From: Arenicellales bacterium
GTDB taxonomy: Bacteria; Pseudomonadota; Gammaproteobacteria; BMS3Bbin11
Assembly: GCA_029287915.1 (NCBI GenBank)
Contig: JARFQE010000067.1
Span: forward strand, 1 to 34,007
Reading direction: 5' to 3'
DNA length: 34,007 nt
Under the pieces are notes generated by a model, which was given only the letters and a program-made list of their open reading frames with translations, ran no database searches and was not told where the DNA came from. A program made the position numbers and the translations under genes. The stretch's first letter is position 1. Each line of letters begins with the position of its first letter. Shown here piece by piece: positions 11,855 through 32,523 of the stretch.

Positions 11855-11982
11855 ATTCTGTACTGGCCTGCACCCGAAAATTCTGCACATTGAATGTGAA
11901 AAACTAATATAGAAAAACTGCTGCTGAGACTAAAAAAACACTGCCCTTTAAATAAAGGAATCCTCTACTGAGTAAAAATTAA

Positions 11983-12177
11983 TCAGGAAGTCTCACAGGT
12001 CATATCTTGCCCGCAACATTGCGGTGATTTTATTTTCCCATGACCGTTTGGACATTCAGAAATCTGCACCTCGCTACCATCGTCGAGTTTCAGTATGCCG
12101 TTTACCAGTGGCGCATCACACTCACCGCAAGTGGCATTTACACTCATACCGCATATATTGCATTTATAAGTTGCCAT
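11983..12177 (-). CDS. Small Cys-rich putative zinc-ribbon protein
   Basis: A 64-residue protein with nine cysteines: C6xxC9, C17xxC20, C42 with H46 (CPNGH), the pair C54-C55 in PQCCGQDM, and C61. The two CxxC knuckles suggest one zinc ribbon, and the later Cys/His set could form a second metal site. I recognise no named family, and function is unknown. The ATG is preceded by AAGGA at good spacing. It reads in the same direction as hemE, 149 bases upstream, but that gap has a small hairpin (12215-12235) and may be a transcript boundary. It converges on the binding-protein gene. Confidence 0.72.
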   Translation of the reverse strand: MATYKCNICGMSVNATCGECDAPLVNGILKLDDGSEVQISECPNGHGKIKSPQCCGQDMTCETS

Positions 12178-12326
12178 AATGTCGTCCTTATGTGTTTTTA
12201 TGTTTGAAGATAGTCACTCAATATATCAGTGAGTGGTTTGACTGTCTATTTTGATTATCTGTTATTTTGAGATATTGATATAAACTTTTAGCTAGCGCCA
12301 AAATCGAATTATAAAAACAATAAGTT

Positions 12327-21379: not shown

Positions 21380-22768
21380 ATGTTGAATGCCAATACACTA
21401 GCTATCATATATCTGATTTCTGCTTCCCTGTTTATTTTGGGCCTGAAAGGACTGACTCATCCTTCATCGGCAAGACGAGGAAATTACCTTGCCATGATCG
21501 GGATGGTGCTGGCGATTGCAGCCACTTTACTGAATCCCATGGTACATAATTATTCATTGATTTTAGCCGGTGTGGCGATTGGAGCAGTGATTGGTATCCT
21601 GGTTGCTATCAGGATCGATATGAAGGCTATGCCACAGCTTGTGGCCGCCTTTCATAGTCTTGTCGGTCTAACTGCCGTGCTGGTCGCCATAGGCACCTTC
21701 ACCGAACATTCAGCTACTGGCATTATTGATAGTATTATGCTGGTAGAACTCGGTGTTGGCTCTTTCATAGGCGCCGTCACGTTTACCGGTTCATTAATTG
21801 CATTTGGAAAATTACAGGGTATCCTGAGCGGCAACCCGATAGTTTTCAAGGGACAGCATCTATTAAATCTTGTTCTGGGACTGGTGACACTGGCACTGGT
21901 CGTCCAGTTTTCACAGAGTAGCAGCCTCACTAGCTTGTTGCTAATTACCGCAATTGCTCTTGCTCTTGGCTTTCTGTTGATCATCCCAATTGGTGGTGCT
22001 GATATGCCGGTGGTGGTGTCGATGCTGAATTCCTATTCAGGCTGGGCAGCGGCCGCTACCGGGTTCACCTTGCAGAACAATGCATTGATAGTAACAGGTG
22101 CGCTGGTGGGTTTCTCCGGCGCAATTCTATCGTTCATCATGTGCCGTGCAATGAACCGCTCCTTCATCAGTGTCATTCTTGGCGGTTTTGGTGGTTCCGA
22201 TGATGAAGAATCTACTGCTATGCAGGCGGCCAACCAGGGCGTCAAAAGTGCAGCAGTAGAAGACCTTGCCTTCATGATCGAAAATGCCAACAGGCTTATA
22301 GTCGTTCCTGGATACGGCATGGCCGTCGCACAGGCACAGCACGCACTGAAAGAATTGACCGATATCATGGATGAGAAGGGCATAGAAATAAAATTTGCCA
22401 TACATCCCGTCGCGGGCCGCATGCCGGGACATATGAATGTATTACTGGCTGAATCTGACATCCCTTATGATCATGTTGTAGAAATGGATGAAATAAATCC
22501 TGAATTCAGTACCACAGACGTGGCACTGGTTGTCGGGGCCAACGATGTGACTAATCCGGCCGCCAAAACTGATAAATCCAGCCCTATCTACGGCATGCCT
22601 ATCCTTGATGTGGAAAAGGCAAAATACGTCTTCGTCATCAAGCGCAGCATGCGTCCAGGGTATTCAGGAATTGAAAACCTGCTGTACTTCAGGGATAACT
22701 GCTCTATGGTATTTGGTGATGCGAAGGAAGTCTGCGAATCGTTGGTTAATGAGTTGAAGAATGGTTAG
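21380..22768 (+). CDS. pntB: NAD(P) transhydrogenase, beta subunit
   Basis: A 462-residue subunit. The first ~270 residues carry about nine membrane segments (domain II), including FHSLVGLTAVLVAIG. The C-terminal ~180 residues are the NADP(H)-binding domain III, with VVPGYGMAVAQAQHAL at about 307-322, HPVAGRMPGHMNVLLAE and VVGANDVTNPAA. With PntAA and PntAB it forms the inner-membrane enzyme that uses proton flow to drive NADPH formation from NADH. AGGAAGAG precedes the start. It is the last gene of the operon; a small palindrome and a heptad repeat element follow before the convergent gmd. Confidence 0.96.
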   Translation: MLNANTLAIIYLISASLFILGLKGLTHPSSARRGNYLAMIGMVLAIAATLLNPMVHNYSLILAGVAIGAVIGILVAIRIDMKAMPQLVAAFHSLVGLTAVLVAIGTFTEHSATGIIDSIMLVELGVGSFIGAVTFTGSLIAFGKLQGILSGNPIVFKGQHLLNLVLGLVTLALVVQFSQSSSLTSLLLITAIALALGFLLIIPIGGADMPVVVSMLNSYSGWAAAATGFTLQNNALIVTGALVGFSGAILSFIMCRAMNRSFISVILGGFGGSDDEESTAMQAANQGVKSAAVEDLAFMIENANRLIVVPGYGMAVAQAQHALKELTDIMDEKGIEIKFAIHPVAGRMPGHMNVLLAESDIPYDHVVEMDEINPEFSTTDVALVVGANDVTNPAAKTDKSSPIYGMPILDVEKAKYVFVIKRSMRPGYSGIENLLYFRDNCSMVFGDAKEVCESLVNELKNG

Positions 22769-22778
22769 TAGGAATTGC

Positions 22779-22888
22779 AAGTATCAAGTCAGAAGTCTCA
22801 AGGCTAAAACCTGACAATCACTAAACGAGGACTCAGTCCTATTTTCGGCCTTATCCTGGAACTTGCGACTTGAAACTTAACACTTCAT
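22779..22888. repeat. Inverted heptad-phased repeat element between pntB and gmd
   Basis: Four units starting with AAGT (the last is AAGG) stand exactly seven bases apart on the plus strand, at 22779, 22786, 22793 and 22800. On the other side, ACTT recurs every seven bases at 22861, 22868, 22875 and 22882, the same AAGTNNN heptamer on the minus strand. Shifted by one unit, AAGTATCAAGTCAG on the left matches AAGTTTCAAGTCGC of the right arm at 11-12 of 14 positions, so the arms could pair across about 55 bases. The element fills most of the gap between two convergent genes. Confidence 0.7.
22828..22845 (+). terminator. Possible weak terminator for pntB inside the repeat element
   Basis: A perfect palindrome AGGACTCAGTCCT (22828-22840), foldable as a 5-bp stem with a TCA loop, is followed by ATTTT. 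The stem is short and the T-run is only four bases, so this is a weak candidate. It lies midway between the two heptad arms and about 60 bases after the pntB stop. Confidence 0.3.
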
Positions 22889-22891
22889 TTC

Positions 22892-24022
22892 CTATTCGTG
22901 TCTGTCAAATGTTCTGAAGCCGCTTGACTGGCAGAGCGCATCACGTTTGGCTTCTTCAAGATCTGATGTCACCATCTCGGTAACCATTTCTGCGAAAGAA
23001 ATTTTTGGTACCCAGCCAAGCTGTTCGCGTGATTTAGTCGGGTCGCCTAATAGCGTTTCAACTTCACAGGGGCGGTAGTAGCGAGGGTCAACCCGAACAA
23101 TTACTGATCCGATTGCTGGACACTTTCCTGGTAGTTCATCACGTTCTGTATCCAGGTCATCAATAATACCGACTTCATCGACGCCATCACCCTGCCAGCG
23201 CAGAGTGATACCAAGTTCTTTAGCCGACAGGTCGACAAATTCTCTGACCGAATGTTGTTCGCCCGTGGCAATGGCAAAATCTTCCGGTTTATCCTGTTGT
23301 AGTATCAGCCATTGTGCTTCGACATAGTCTTTTGCATGTCCCCAGTCTCGTCTGGCATCCATGTTGCCCAGATACAAACAATCCTGCATTCCTAATGTAA
23401 TCCGAGCCAGCGCGCGTGTGATCTTGCGTGTAACAAAGGTCTCACCGCGTATTGGTGATTCGTGATTGAATAAAATGCCATTACAGGCAAACATGCCATA
23501 GGATTCACGATAATTGACAGTAATCCAGTAGGCATAGAGCTTCGCTACTGCATAAGGTGAACGAGGATAAAACGGGGTGGTTTCATTCTGCGGCGTCTCG
23601 ACAACTTTACCAAACAGTTCTGATGTAGAGGCCTGGTAGAAACGACAGCTTTCCTGCAGGCCCAGCAAACGAATGGCCTCAAGCACACGTAATGACCCGA
23701 GGGCATCAGAATTGGCAGTATATTCAGGCTCCTCAAAGGACACAGCGACGTGACTTTGGGCTGCAAGGTTATAAACCTCGTCCGGCTGAGTCTGCTGGAT
23801 GATACGTACCAGACTACTGGAGTCAGTCATATCTCCATAATGCAGGACAAAGTTCTGTTCGGCTTCATGCGGGTCACGGTAAAGGTGATCGATACGGTCA
23901 GTATTAAAGAGCGAGGTGCGCCGTTTGATGCCATGGACGTTATAGCCTTTGGCGAGCAGGAATTCAGCCAGATAGGCACCGTCCTGGCCGGTAATTCCGG
24001 TAATAAGTGCAGTTTTACTCAT
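22892..24022 (-). CDS. gmd: GDP-mannose 4,6-dehydratase
   Basis: A 376-residue short-chain dehydrogenase-type enzyme that converts GDP-D-mannose to GDP-4-keto-6-deoxy-D-mannose, precursor of GDP-fucose, GDP-rhamnose or GDP-perosamine for surface polysaccharides. The NADP loop [10 protein letters not shown] is at residues 9-18. The catalytic set is Thr133/Glu135 in ASTSELFG and Tyr157-x3-Lys161 in [24 protein letters not shown] is family-specific. Length is close to E. coli Gmd (373). No partner gene (fcl, rmd or per) is adjacent, so the final sugar cannot be inferred. No clear Shine-Dalgarno. It is divergent from nnrS and convergent with pntB. Confidence 0.95.
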
Positions 24023-28619: not shown

Positions 28620-29491
28620 TGAAGAAAAAACTCAAGAAACCTCGACCTCGTCTGCGTTCCTGGTTATCCAGGCTGGGGCTTTCCCTGCTGGGCATATCCA
28701 TGGAACGCGAAGATATGATAAAGATTCTGCGTAACGCTAGTGAGCGTCATCTCATCGGCCAGGATGCACTTGACATGATAGAGGGTGTTTTTCAGGTATC
28801 GACTATGCAGGTACGGGATATCATGGTGCCGCGATCGCAAATGGTCGTACTCGATAGAGACGTCTCTCCTGAAGATTGTCTGCCGGTGATGAATAAACAT
28901 GGCTACTCACGCTACCCGGTGATAAAAGAAGATCGTGATAATGTTATCGGTATCCTGCTGGCTAAAGATTTATTACGCTATTTTGAAAGCGATCAGCAAC
29001 AACGTTTTGTTTTCAAGGATGTCCTTCGGCAGGCCGTATTCGTACCTGAAAGCAAGCGACTCAATGTTATGCTGTCAGATTTTCGCGCCAATCGTAATCA
29101 TATGGCCATCGTTATGAATGAATATGGCGGAGTGGCCGGACTGGTAACCATCGAAGATGTACTGGAACAGATTGTCGGTGATATTCAGGATGAATTTGAT
29201 TACGATGAAGAAGTCAGCATGATACGAAAAACCGATGATGGATATGTTGTTAAGGCATTAACATCACTGGAAGATTTCAACGAATATTTTGATTGTTCAC
29301 TGCAGCAGGGCGATACGGAAACAATAGGTGGGCTGGTAACTAATGCCTTCTCCTATCTGCCTGAACGAGGTGAATCTGTCGATATTAGTGGCTACCATTT
29401 CACGGTTCTGCATTGTGATTCCAGGCGGATCAATCTGCTCAAATTAACAGTGAATGAAAGCACGGATTCTGCACCGGAAGATAACATATGA
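28619..29491 (+). CDS. corC: CorC/YbeX-type CBS-domain protein
   Basis: A 290-residue soluble protein of the CorC/HlyC family. It has two CBS domains (about residues 68-125 and 134-190, starting VRDIMVPRSQMVVLD and ending IVGDIQDEFD) and a C-terminal CorC_HlyC domain (about 205-280). The membrane DUF21 domain of longer relatives is absent, as in E. coli YbeX. The family is linked to Mg2+/Co2+ efflux together with CorA, and YbeX also to ribosome metabolism with YbeY and YbeZ, which fits this operon. The ATG overlaps the ybeY stop, and its own TGA overlaps the lnt ATG, so translation is likely coupled. Confidence 0.92.
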   Translation: MKKKLKKPRPRLRSWLSRLGLSLLGISMEREDMIKILRNASERHLIGQDALDMIEGVFQVSTMQVRDIMVPRSQMVVLDRDVSPEDCLPVMNKHGYSRYPVIKEDRDNVIGILLAKDLLRYFESDQQQRFVFKDVLRQAVFVPESKRLNVMLSDFRANRNHMAIVMNEYGGVAGLVTIEDVLEQIVGDIQDEFDYDEEVSMIRKTDDGYVVKALTSLEDFNEYFDCSLQQGDTETIGGLVTNAFSYLPERGESVDISGYHFTVLHCDSRRINLLKLTVNESTDSAPEDNI

Positions 29492-31011
29492 TAAACCCAC
29501 GGTGGCAGGATGCCATCGTACTGCTTGCCGGTGCAGGGCTGGTACTGTCCTTTGCTCCATTCGCATACTACCCACTGGCCATAATTTTTACAGCAACCCT
29601 GTTTTACTTCTGGTCTAAAGTCACACCTGCCCGTGCAGCATGGCTGGGGTTTGTTTTCGGACTCGGGCAATTTGGTGCAGGAGCTTCCTGGGTTTATGTT
29701 TCTATCCATGAATTCGGCTTTATGCCCGCGCCAATGGCAGCCTTTCTGGTTTTCCTTTTTGTCGCATATCTTTCACTTTTTCCAGCAATAGCTGGCTGGT
29801 TACAGGCTCGAGTGATGAAGCCGGGAACCTGTCGCCTGATTTTTGCAGCACCTGTCTTGCTGGTATTGATGGAATGGATGCGTGGCTGGTTGATGACCGG
29901 GTTCCCATGGCTAAACCTTGGTTATTCACAGAGCAACAGCCTGTTGATGAACCTGGCGCCGCTGATAGGCGTCTATGGCATGAGTCTTGTTGTCGCAATA
30001 CTGGCTGCTCTGGCAGCCTCAATCATAATTTGGAAGGGAGGCCTCAGCAGACTGCTGGCAATAGCACTGTTTGCTAGTATGTTCTTTATTGGCTGGGCTG
30101 CTGGCATAGTACAATTTGTCGAACCAGCCGGAAAAAAAATTGATATTGCCCTGTTGCAGGGTAATGTCCCTCTTAGCGAAAAATGGAAACCAGGAGCCAG
30201 CCAGCAAATTATTTCTCATTATGTGGCACTTAGTCGAGACGTGGTGAATAGCAGTGCAATCATAGTCTGGCCTGAAGGGGCTGTGCCGGATAGCTGGCAG
30301 CATGTTTCTGACTGGTTAGCAATATCTCTGCCACGAAGACAAAATGGCAGCATGCCGGATTATCTAATTGGTACCATTGACACCATGCCTGGTGGGGAAT
30401 ACTACAATGCCGCAATTTCTATCAGTGATTCAAATACAAAACCGGAAGCAAATGAGATTTATAGAAAACAGCACCTGGTACCATTTGGTGAATTTCTCCC
30501 TTTTAAGCCAATACTCGGTTGGTTGATTGATTACCTGAAAATACCCATGTCAGATTTTTCCAGCTGGCAGGGTGTACAACCAGATATTGAGCTTTCAGGC
30601 TGGCCAGTTTCCGTCAGTATATGCTACGAGGATGCCTTTGGTGAGGAGTTGGCAAAAAATGTCAGTGGAGCAGCGTTCCTTATTAATGTTAGTGAGGATG
30701 CCTGGTTTGGCGATTCTTTGGCACCACATCAACGATTACAGATGGCCCAGATCAGAGCGCGGGAGTCAGGGCGTTACTTCGTCAGGGCGGCCAATACTGG
30801 GATTACGGCTGTGATCAATGAAAAGGGAGAAATCATATCCAGGCTGGAGCAGTTCACCACCGGTGTTCTCAAAGCAAGCGTGGTTCCGATAGAAGGCCAG
30901 ACACCTTATGTGCGCTTTGGCAACAGCCTGTTTCTTGCTTTGCTAATATTTTGGTTTCTACCAGTCCTGTACGTTAGGTTAAAAGGTGGAAAAAGAAGTC
31001 TTAAGTGTTAA
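29488..31011 (+). CDS. lnt: Apolipoprotein N-acyltransferase
   Basis: A 507-residue inner-membrane enzyme that adds the third acyl chain to the N-terminal Cys of lipoproteins. The N-terminal ~205 residues carry the usual membrane helices, including GFPWLNLGYSQ. The periplasmic nitrilase-fold domain (about 217-470) holds the catalytic triad Glu263 (VWPEGAVP), Lys327 (YRKQHLVPFGE) and Cys379 (SICYEDAFGE). A last membrane helix lies at about 478-497. The final codons (RSLKC, stop) lie inside a heptad repeat, so the end of the protein seems to have been shaped by that repeat. It overlaps corC by ATGA. Confidence 0.95.
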   Translation: MINPRWQDAIVLLAGAGLVLSFAPFAYYPLAIIFTATLFYFWSKVTPARAAWLGFVFGLGQFGAGASWVYVSIHEFGFMPAPMAAFLVFLFVAYLSLFPAIAGWLQARVMKPGTCRLIFAAPVLLVLMEWMRGWLMTGFPWLNLGYSQSNSLLMNLAPLIGVYGMSLVVAILAALAASIIIWKGGLSRLLAIALFASMFFIGWAAGIVQFVEPAGKKIDIALLQGNVPLSEKWKPGASQQIISHYVALSRDVVNSSAIIVWPEGAVPDSWQHVSDWLAISLPRRQNGSMPDYLIGTIDTMPGGEYYNAAISISDSNTKPEANEIYRKQHLVPFGEFLPFKPILGWLIDYLKIPMSDFSSWQGVQPDIELSGWPVSVSICYEDAFGEELAKNVSGAAFLINVSEDAWFGDSLAPHQRLQMAQIRARESGRYFVRAANTGITAVINEKGEIISRLEQFTTGVLKASVVPIEGQTPYVRFGNSLFLALLIFWFLPVLYVRLKGGKRSLKC

Positions 31012-31016
31012 GTCGA
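30996..31016 (+). repeat. Three AAGTNNN heptamers at the 3' end of lnt
   Basis: AAGTCTT, AAGTGTT and AAGTCGA follow each other at exactly seven bases. The first two and the next two bases encode the last residues and stop of lnt; the rest is intergenic. The unit is the same as in the element between pntB and gmd, and forms the left arm of the lnt/mgtE gap element, with the AAACTGA array as its right arm. Confidence 0.6.
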
Positions 31017-31100
31017 AAAAAGAACACAGAAGACATGAGAGAAAATTCAAATCACAGGCTTTTGTTTGATTTACAGGAATACAGTTCCACCATATTGTTA

Positions 31101-31160
31101 AAACTGAAAACTGAAAACTGAAAACTGAAAACTGAAAACTGAAAACTGAAAACTGAAAAC
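31101..31160. repeat. Perfect AAACTGA tandem array (8.6 copies)
   Basis: Eight uninterrupted copies of AAACTGA plus AAAC occupy 60 bases between the convergent lnt and mgtE genes and end 7 bases before the mgtE stop codon. Read on the minus strand, the array starts CAAGTTTTCAG, resembling the right arm of the pntB/gmd element. The unit differs by one base from the TAACTGA intergenic repeats described in marine Beggiatoaceae. Perfect identity of the copies suggests recent slippage expansion. Confidence 0.95.
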
Positions 31161-31167
31161 TTGTCTT

Positions 31168-32523
31168 CTACACCAAAAAGATAGCCGCCAGGCCAAGGAA
31201 ACTAACAAAACCAACAACATCCGCAACTGTCGTTAGTGCAACGCCACCTGCCAGTGTAGGATCGATTCCCATACGACTAAGCATTGAAGGCAGTAGTGCA
31301 CCGAACAGGGCGGAGCTGGCCATGGTGATGATCATTGCCACACCTATTATCATCGCCAATGCAGGGTTACCGAACCACAGCAGTGTAACCAGTGTTACCA
31401 CCACAGCCCAGATGATTCCATTGACACTGCCTACCAGTAGCTCTTTAATAAAAACCTTGCGCGCATTTTTGTCAGTGATGGTCCCATTGGAAAGGCCACG
31501 GATAACAACCGTCAGGCTTTGTATGCCTGCATTGCCTCCCATGCTGGCGACAACTGGCATTAGCACAGCAAGGGCAACCAGGCCACTGATGGTTTCCTGA
31601 AATCGACCGATTACTGTTGCTGCGATAAATGCTGTTATCAGGTTAATTCCTAGCCACACTGCGCGACTGCGCGAAGTGTGGATCACAGGGGCAAAGATAT
31701 CCTCTTCTTCATCCAGGCCAGCAGGAGCCATTACCCGGCGATCAGCCTCTTCCTGGATCACATCAACGATATCATCAACCGTGATACGGCCCAGCAGCTG
31801 ATTGTCGTCATCTACGACAGGTGCCGACACCAGATTATAGCGGGCAAATGCCTGCGCAACTTCCTGTTGCGGTTGCTGAACAGAAAAAGTGCGTATATTC
31901 TTATTGGCTATCTCATCGATTCGTTGTGCGTCATCAGCTGTTACCAGGTCAGACAGTAGCAGTGCTCCAACAAGTTTATTATTTCGATCGATGACAAAAA
32001 GTTTGTCTGTGTATTCAGGCAGTTCATTCAGCATGCGCAGATATCGACGCGTTACGGCAACGGTTACGCGCGGCCTGATCGCCACCGCATCGATATCCAT
32101 CAGACCACCTGCAGTATCTTCGGCATGGGATAATACTGCTTTCAGCTGCTCACGCTTTTCACGATCTGCGACATACAGTACTTCAGCGATAACTTCATCG
32201 GGAAGTTCAGGGATCAGGTCAGCTATTTCATCAGTGTCGAGATTATGTACTGCCGCGGCCAGAGAATGCGTATTCATATCGGCCATCAGGCCTTCACGCA
32301 CCCCTTCAGAAAGTTCGACCAGTGTTTCACCACGACGCAAGTTGTCGATATGTGGCCAGATCAGTTCACGATTTTCAGGGGGGATGGATTCCAGCAGACG
32401 AGCAATATCAGCTGGGTGTAGCATCTGTAGATCATCCCTGATCTTTTCAATGCCGGATTCATTCAGCACAGTAACTATATGCTCAATCAGATCTTGCACA
32501 TTGTCTTGGTTTGCTTCAGTCAT
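31168..32523 (-). CDS. mgtE: MgtE-type magnesium channel/transporter
   Basis: A 451-residue Mg2+ channel. The N-terminal MgtE_N helical domain (about residues 20-125, including LHPADIARLLESIPPENREL) and a pair of CBS domains (about 130-255) sense cytosolic Mg2+. Five membrane helices follow from about residue 290 (AVWLGINLITAFIAATVIG). The conserved Asp435 in TTVADVVGF corresponds to the pore aspartate of Thermus MgtE. A ribosome site (GGAG, 5 bases before ATG) supports the start. The stop is next to the AAACTGA array. It reads in the same direction as the enzyme I gene, 281 bases upstream. Confidence 0.95.
   Translation of the reverse strand: MTEANQDNVQDLIEHIVTVLNESGIEKIRDDLQMLHPADIARLLESIPPENRELIWPHIDNLRRGETLVELSEGVREGLMADMNTHSLAAAVHNLDTDEIADLIPELPDEVIAEVLYVADREKREQLKAVLSHAEDTAGGLMDIDAVAIRPRVTVAVTRRYLRMLNELPEYTDKLFVIDRNNKLVGALLLSDLVTADDAQRIDEIANKNIRTFSVQQPQQEVAQAFARYNLVSAPVVDDDNQLLGRITVDDIVDVIQEEADRRVMAPAGLDEEEDIFAPVIHTSRSRAVWLGINLITAFIAATVIGRFQETISGLVALAVLMPVVASMGGNAGIQSLTVVIRGLSNGTITDKNARKVFIKELLVGSVNGIIWAVVVTLVTLLWFGNPALAMIIGVAMIITMASSALFGALLPSMLSRMGIDPTLAGGVALTTVADVVGFVSFLGLAAIFLV

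Follow-up and report, generated by a model that had tools for sequence, protein, structure and literature searches.

Beside the stop codons of genes in an Arenicellales bacterium and its sister species lie intergenic elements in which an AAG anchor returns every seven bases. The left arm of such an element consists of AAGNNNN heptads in a row, and the right arm of complementary NNNNCTT heptads. On the strength of their sequence pattern, these elements are tentatively read here as 3'-end hairpin elements with drifting spacers that may stand in for a terminator or protect the 3' end, a reading judged to fall a little short of an even chance.

Heptad elements in the window

The window, a stretch of 34,007 nucleotides (contig JARFQE010000067.1), was originally described as holding two convergent gaps with plus-oriented heptamers at the left and minus-oriented heptamers at the right. 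Gene names for the flanks of these gaps were taken from NCBIfam. Between pntB (NAD(P) transhydrogenase beta subunit; 21380..22768, plus strand; NF006974 at 560.8 bits, under the cut-off of 689) and gmd (GDP-mannose 4,6-dehydratase; 22892..24022, minus strand; TIGR01472), the layout is found as described. Four plus heptads run from 22779 (AAGTATC AAGTCAG AAGTCTC AAGGCTA; 22779..22806) and four minus heptads run from 22885 (AAGTGTT AAGTTTC AAGTCGC AAGTTCC; 22858..22885). Both arms were read from the sequence and withstood a shuffle test, as four AAGT units in phase, with at most one mismatch, match the window at these two arms only and were found 0 times in 100 dinucleotide shuffles. Three such units occur at 3 places in the window against a shuffle mean of 0.13, and AAAACTGAAAACTG, allowing up to two mismatches, is matched 9 times where 0.33 is expected.

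The second gap is flanked by lnt (apolipoprotein N-acyltransferase; 29488..31011, plus strand; TIGR00546) and mgtE (magnesium transporter; 31168..32523, minus strand; TIGR00400). On the lnt side, the array AAGTCTT-AAGTGTT-AAGTCGA described earlier is present on the plus strand at 30996..31016, with a Tandem Repeats Finder (TRF) period of 7 at 30996-31014, and the lnt stop codon (31009-31011) falls inside it. The interior (31017..31099, no strand assigned) differs between species in the orthologous-gap comparison below. Turning to the mgtE side, minus-strand heptads are indeed present at 31100..31163, but the unit is CAGTTTT (AAAACTG on the plus strand; 8.9 copies with 100% match by TRF at 31100-31161) and not one that begins with AAG throughout. 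Seen from mgtE, the array reads AAGTTTT and then CAGTTTT CAGTTTT and so on, with AAGT in the first unit only, and it is this AAGTTTT end that adjoins the mgtE stop. No second copy of the exact AAAACTG array was found in the window's own genome, and the unit is therefore locus-specific.

In the same shuffle-tested scan, neither heptad signal was found in the third convergent gap (11855-11982) or in the co-directional and divergent gaps of the window, in line with the earlier claim. The original observation is therefore right, because AAGT heptads stand in both gaps, the fourfold pattern has no shuffle matches and the other gaps are empty. A search of the window with Rfam at gathering score gave 0 matches and found no known RNA family. 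The third gap, which ends at 11982, is bounded by an ORF on the minus strand (11983-12180) whose 65 residues include several CxxC pairs and likely form a zinc or iron binding protein.

Period and address in the genus

The DNA analysed comprises 0.73 Mb of the window's genome (G000) and, from two sister species, 1.15 Mb of G001 and 0.32 Mb of G003, with genes called by a codon model. Some of these stretches were picked for holding matches and their densities are thus not unbiased; comparisons of gap classes inside one set of stretches should suffer less from this choice. Among intergenic repeat lags of 4 to 15, only 7 and its multiple 14 are strong in the three genomes. When the gene ends are taken separately, as had been proposed, the lag-7 excess in the first 50 bases past the stop codon reaches z = 7.2, 5.0 and 4.4 at convergent 3' ends and z = 2.7, 9.9 and 3.5 at co-directional 3' ends (G000, G001 and G003, in this order throughout). 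Upstream of starts in co-directional gaps, the excess is weaker (z = 1.9, 3.8 and 3.3), and at divergent 5' ends it is about zero (z = -0.1, 0.1 and 0.8). There is no lag-7 signal in four 50-kb stretches of E. coli K-12 and almost none in 157 kb of a sister genus.

Heptad arrays were found in 28 of 202 convergent, 61 of 808 co-directional and 10 of 227 divergent gaps, with convergent gaps exceeding both divergent (p = 0.0006) and co-directional gaps (p = 0.008). A small subset of G001 contigs, taken blind, shows a trend in the same direction that is not significant. Since co-directional gaps hold arrays at half the rate, it is 3' ends that are preferred and not just convergent gaps. The supposed tie to 3' ends thus holds at the level of genes, for the lag-7 excess at convergent and co-directional 3' ends, but not as a confinement to convergent gaps. 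Likewise, an equal spread over the gap classes, which would have spoken against the prediction, is not what the counts give, yet most convergent gaps are without an array because only 28 of the 202 carry one. One convergent gap of the window's genome (G000:C62:28558-28760) combines a heptad arm, located at its left stop codon, with a normal GC-rich bidirectional terminator (AAAAAAAGCCGCCTGAAAAGGCGGCTTTT).

The depletion of arrays in divergent, promoter-bearing gaps and the many convergent gaps without an element would both suit the main rival explanation, a serious one though less likely than the 3'-end hairpin reading, in which the heptads are neutral minisatellites. These would arise by slippage, have their arms copied by template switching and be tolerated away from promoters, with no function. 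However, the arrays begin close to the stop codon, usually within about 0-25 bases, and not anywhere in the gap.

Polarity and anatomy

Of the arrays at convergent 3' ends, 46 have the outward sense relative to their gene and 4 have the inward sense. When arrays of both senses occur in one gap, of whatever class, the plus array comes first in 34 cases and the minus array in 0. Because this order is always kept, the design amounts to an inverted repeat whose outermost triplet is AAG at the left and CTT at the right, and its two arms are more plausibly halves of that repeat than separate tags, one for each gene end. Between convergent genes, the elements tend to span the gap from stop to stop, and in some co-directional gaps the second arm adjoins the start of the downstream gene. 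Some heptad elements also enclose a further inverted repeat, of 9-base rhythm (ACCACAGAGGACACAGAGG ... CCTCTGTGTCCTCTGTGGT), seen at several loci (G001:C7:54901-55221, G001:C6:51401-51598 and G001:C22:81711-82026). Positions 31024-31044 of the window (gaacacagaagacatgagag) may be a worn copy of it.

Single arms without a detected partner also occur. Together with an anchor that stays constant as its spacers vary, they could point to a tandem series of sites bound by a protein or RNA that recognises AAG at 7-base steps on DNA or nascent RNA, with the hairpin being secondary. This explanation is very unlikely, given that the arms are complementary in sister species, that G001 contains non-AAG heptads with matching arms (ACGGTTT and GAACACT) and that units such as AAGTTGA have no YC step for Rho.

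Orthologous gaps and predicted hairpins

Readable orthologous gaps comprise lnt/mgtE in five sister species and pntB/gmd in four. All of them carry outward heptads beside both stop codons and the units differ, with AAGTTCC/AAGATCC in G001, G002 and G006, eight copies of AAGTTTC in one arm in G005, and GTTTTCAG-type units in both arms of the pntB/gmd gap in G003. The suggestion that the interiors differ is confirmed by this comparison. Persistence was assessed at these two gaps only, both of which were picked for carrying an element in the window, and it argues against neutral minisatellites; in a systematic comparison, syntenic convergent gaps were too few for a persistence rate.

Hairpins were predicted by folding and their z-scores computed against simple shuffles; for most of these gaps the predicted hairpin is strong. 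For lnt/mgtE, the five sister species score -13.4, -4.2, -7.9, -6.1 and -3.2, and the window's own gap has no predicted hairpin (z = -0.3). For pntB/gmd, the window scores -2.5 and the sister species -5.9, -8.6, -2.8 and -7.0. Predicted hairpins are weak in G000 overall. In the window's copy of the lnt/mgtE element, arm matching is lost, or desynchronised, and CAGTTTT units have over-expanded one arm. Perfect expansions on one side only, of which this array is an example, are in keeping with neutral minisatellites, as are units that are common genome-wide and different between species.

Several unit families coexist in G001 (AAGTTCC, AAGGACT, AAGGATT, AAAGGGG, ACGGTTT and GAACACT). Its arrays pair with the other side of their own gap at -26.3 kcal/mol compared with -15.6 kcal/mol for other gaps (p = 1e-4). 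In G003, the arms match no better within a gap than between gaps, and unit sharing across the genome therefore explains part of the arm matching.

Distribution beyond the genus

In a class-wide search, exact AAGTTCC repeats were found almost solely within the genus, and exact AAGTTCCAAGTTCCAAG is found in 5 of 369 gammaproteobacterial genomes, nearly all from this genus. Searching for exact units hid a wider pattern, and the anchors were then searched without their spacers. Runs of AAGNNNN occur in 45 of 398 genomes of the phylum. A layout query of three AAG-heptads, a gap of 8-38 and three CTT-heptads identified inward pairs in 35 of the 369 gammaproteobacterial genomes and in 28 genera, giving 402 matches, many of which are registers of one element. 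The same letters in the reversed layout were found in 2 of 369 genomes with 3 matches. This reversed-layout search is the control for polarity; the backward pattern was set aside because heptad arrays can match it, so that it is not independent. Slippage alone does not give a fixed AAG-left polarity across distant families, which is a further point against neutral minisatellites.

Spacers were compared in a sample of 35 listed places, drawn from 19 genomes of other genera. They agree between arms better than with loci permuted (p = 0.0002), but agreement with the genome's other loci is nearly as good (2.37 of 4 positions versus 2.54 at their own locus). Only 14% of neighbouring units are identical. 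The common part is the AAG anchor and not the unit, bearing in mind that the query itself required anchors; with that same limit, anchors that persist among units so seldom identical are not what neutral minisatellites would lead one to expect. Many inward AAG-heptad pairs are found in other families (85 matches in G131, 54 in G332, 39 in G338, 15 in G119 and 13 in G235). In the control columns, G128 and G254 hold GAANNNN- and TTCNNNN-anchored heptad pairs, and the anchor may therefore differ from AAG in places.

Heptamer repeats between genes have been on record for decades, and no role for them is agreed. The fixed polarity across the 369 genomes and the 3'-end address lead to a concrete and testable hypothesis, and a search based on grammar can find elements where sequence searches fail.

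Relation to terminators and proposed explanation

A canonical terminator-like site is present in 2 of 36 convergent gaps with heptads and in 33 of 124 without them (p = 0.006). This rarity is counted for the 3'-end hairpin reading, as are the heptad period, the polarity, the 3'-end address with arrays that begin beside stop codons, the orthologous persistence, the hairpins of the sister species and the within-gap arm pairing of G001. Counted against it are the lack of a U- or A-tract, the window's lnt/mgtE gap without a hairpin, the weak hairpins of G000, the arm matching in G003, and the elements found close to starts in co-directional gaps and in a small number of divergent ones. Beside the arms, no enrichment of A-tracts or U-tracts was found, nor a U-tract right after the stem, and the elements are therefore not classical intrinsic terminators. 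They resemble bidirectional intrinsic terminators in their place between convergent stop codons, their purine-left/pyrimidine-right polarity and the hairpin predicted in sister species, but the heptad arms are long and AT-rich instead of short GC-rich stems and are not accompanied by a U- or A-tract.

Two other candidates were considered. The idea of a Rho rut site was dropped because AAGTTGA and AAGTTAA units have no YC steps. Cruciform extrusion is not favoured on general grounds of supercoiling, since negative supercoiling concentrates at divergent and not at convergent genes.

According to the 3'-end hairpin reading, the transcript of either gene would fold the two arms into one long hairpin, which could end or protect the message in both directions in the manner of the bidirectional terminator of other gaps. 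Units would change by 7-base slippage, and the two arms could be kept alike by template switching or selection. The position of the element would be retained because a 3'-end structure is useful there. As for their putative function, the elements probably take the place of terminators and serve as 3'-end structures in both directions. Should they work at transcript ends, they would represent a 3'-end signal whose layout is kept while its sequence is free to drift. A wider formulation is possible, albeit with considerable doubt: a gammaproteobacteria-wide class of 3'-end hairpins may be set by a grammar of 7-base AAG/CTT anchor, inward polarity and complementary arms, with spacer dialects by lineage, replacing terminators at some gene ends and keeping its position while the letters turn over.

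Comparison with known repeats

REP/BIME palindromes, which are associated with RAYT transposases, are similar to the heptad elements in being dispersed, extragenic, palindromic and located at gene 3' ends. They differ in that the heptad elements have no conserved core and their units vary between loci and species. The shared features would be expected if the elements were mobile palindromes of a REP or MITE type that a transposase copies around the genome and that come to rest next to stop codons, and Y1 transposase-like genes are present in G001 (10), G003 (8) and G000 (1). This origin is nonetheless unlikely. No Y1_Tnp (RAYT) gene was found in the heptad carriers G005 (91% complete), G002, G004 and G006 (the latter three being incomplete genomes), a fixed core sequence is absent with unit families varying by locus, and the same gaps are occupied in several species. 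Mobilisation by RAYT was rejected as Y1_Tnp genes are not co-distributed with heptads. G001 also has a dispersed palindrome of the type GTAGGTGCGAATTCATTCGCACCTAC in gaps of C5, C12, C16, C22 and C27, and this palindrome and the ten Y1 genes could be an ordinary REP/RAYT pair, apart from the heptads.

Among heptamer repeats, the STRR heptanucleotide repeats of heterocystous cyanobacteria are 7-base tandem units dispersed between genes, for which no inverted layout or 3'-end address is known to be reported. The AAACTGA unit by which the mgtE-side array was originally described is one base from TAACTGA; no TAACTGA array is present in the window, where the units are AAGTNNN and CAGTTTT. Intergenic TAACTGA repeats are known from marine Beggiatoaceae, Cyanobacteria and Bacteroidetes (MacGregor 2015, PMC4679880). 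In the Beggiatoaceae genome, they are direct repeats found mainly just upstream of starts, and roles at the RNA level have been proposed (PMC4679880). Like the present elements, they are abundant intergenic tandem heptamers in a gammaproteobacterium, and some species have mixed heptamers (PMC4679880). The TAACTGA repeats have one fixed unit (PMC4679880), whereas the elements described here have drifting AAG-anchored units in inward pairs at 3' ends. Nor do the latter share the start-codon address, as they prefer 3' ends and give no signal at divergent 5' ends. Heptamer-derived prokaryotic satellites, described more generally, are also dispersed intergenic 7-base tandem units, with neither an inverted layout nor a 3'-end address reported for them in that source (PMC6749651). 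In the open-access literature, full-text searches with unit sequences included, no account of inverted heptads with an AAG anchor at 3' ends was found. The elements extend the known intergenic heptamer repeats, from which they differ in their AAG anchor, their inward pairing and their 3'-end address.
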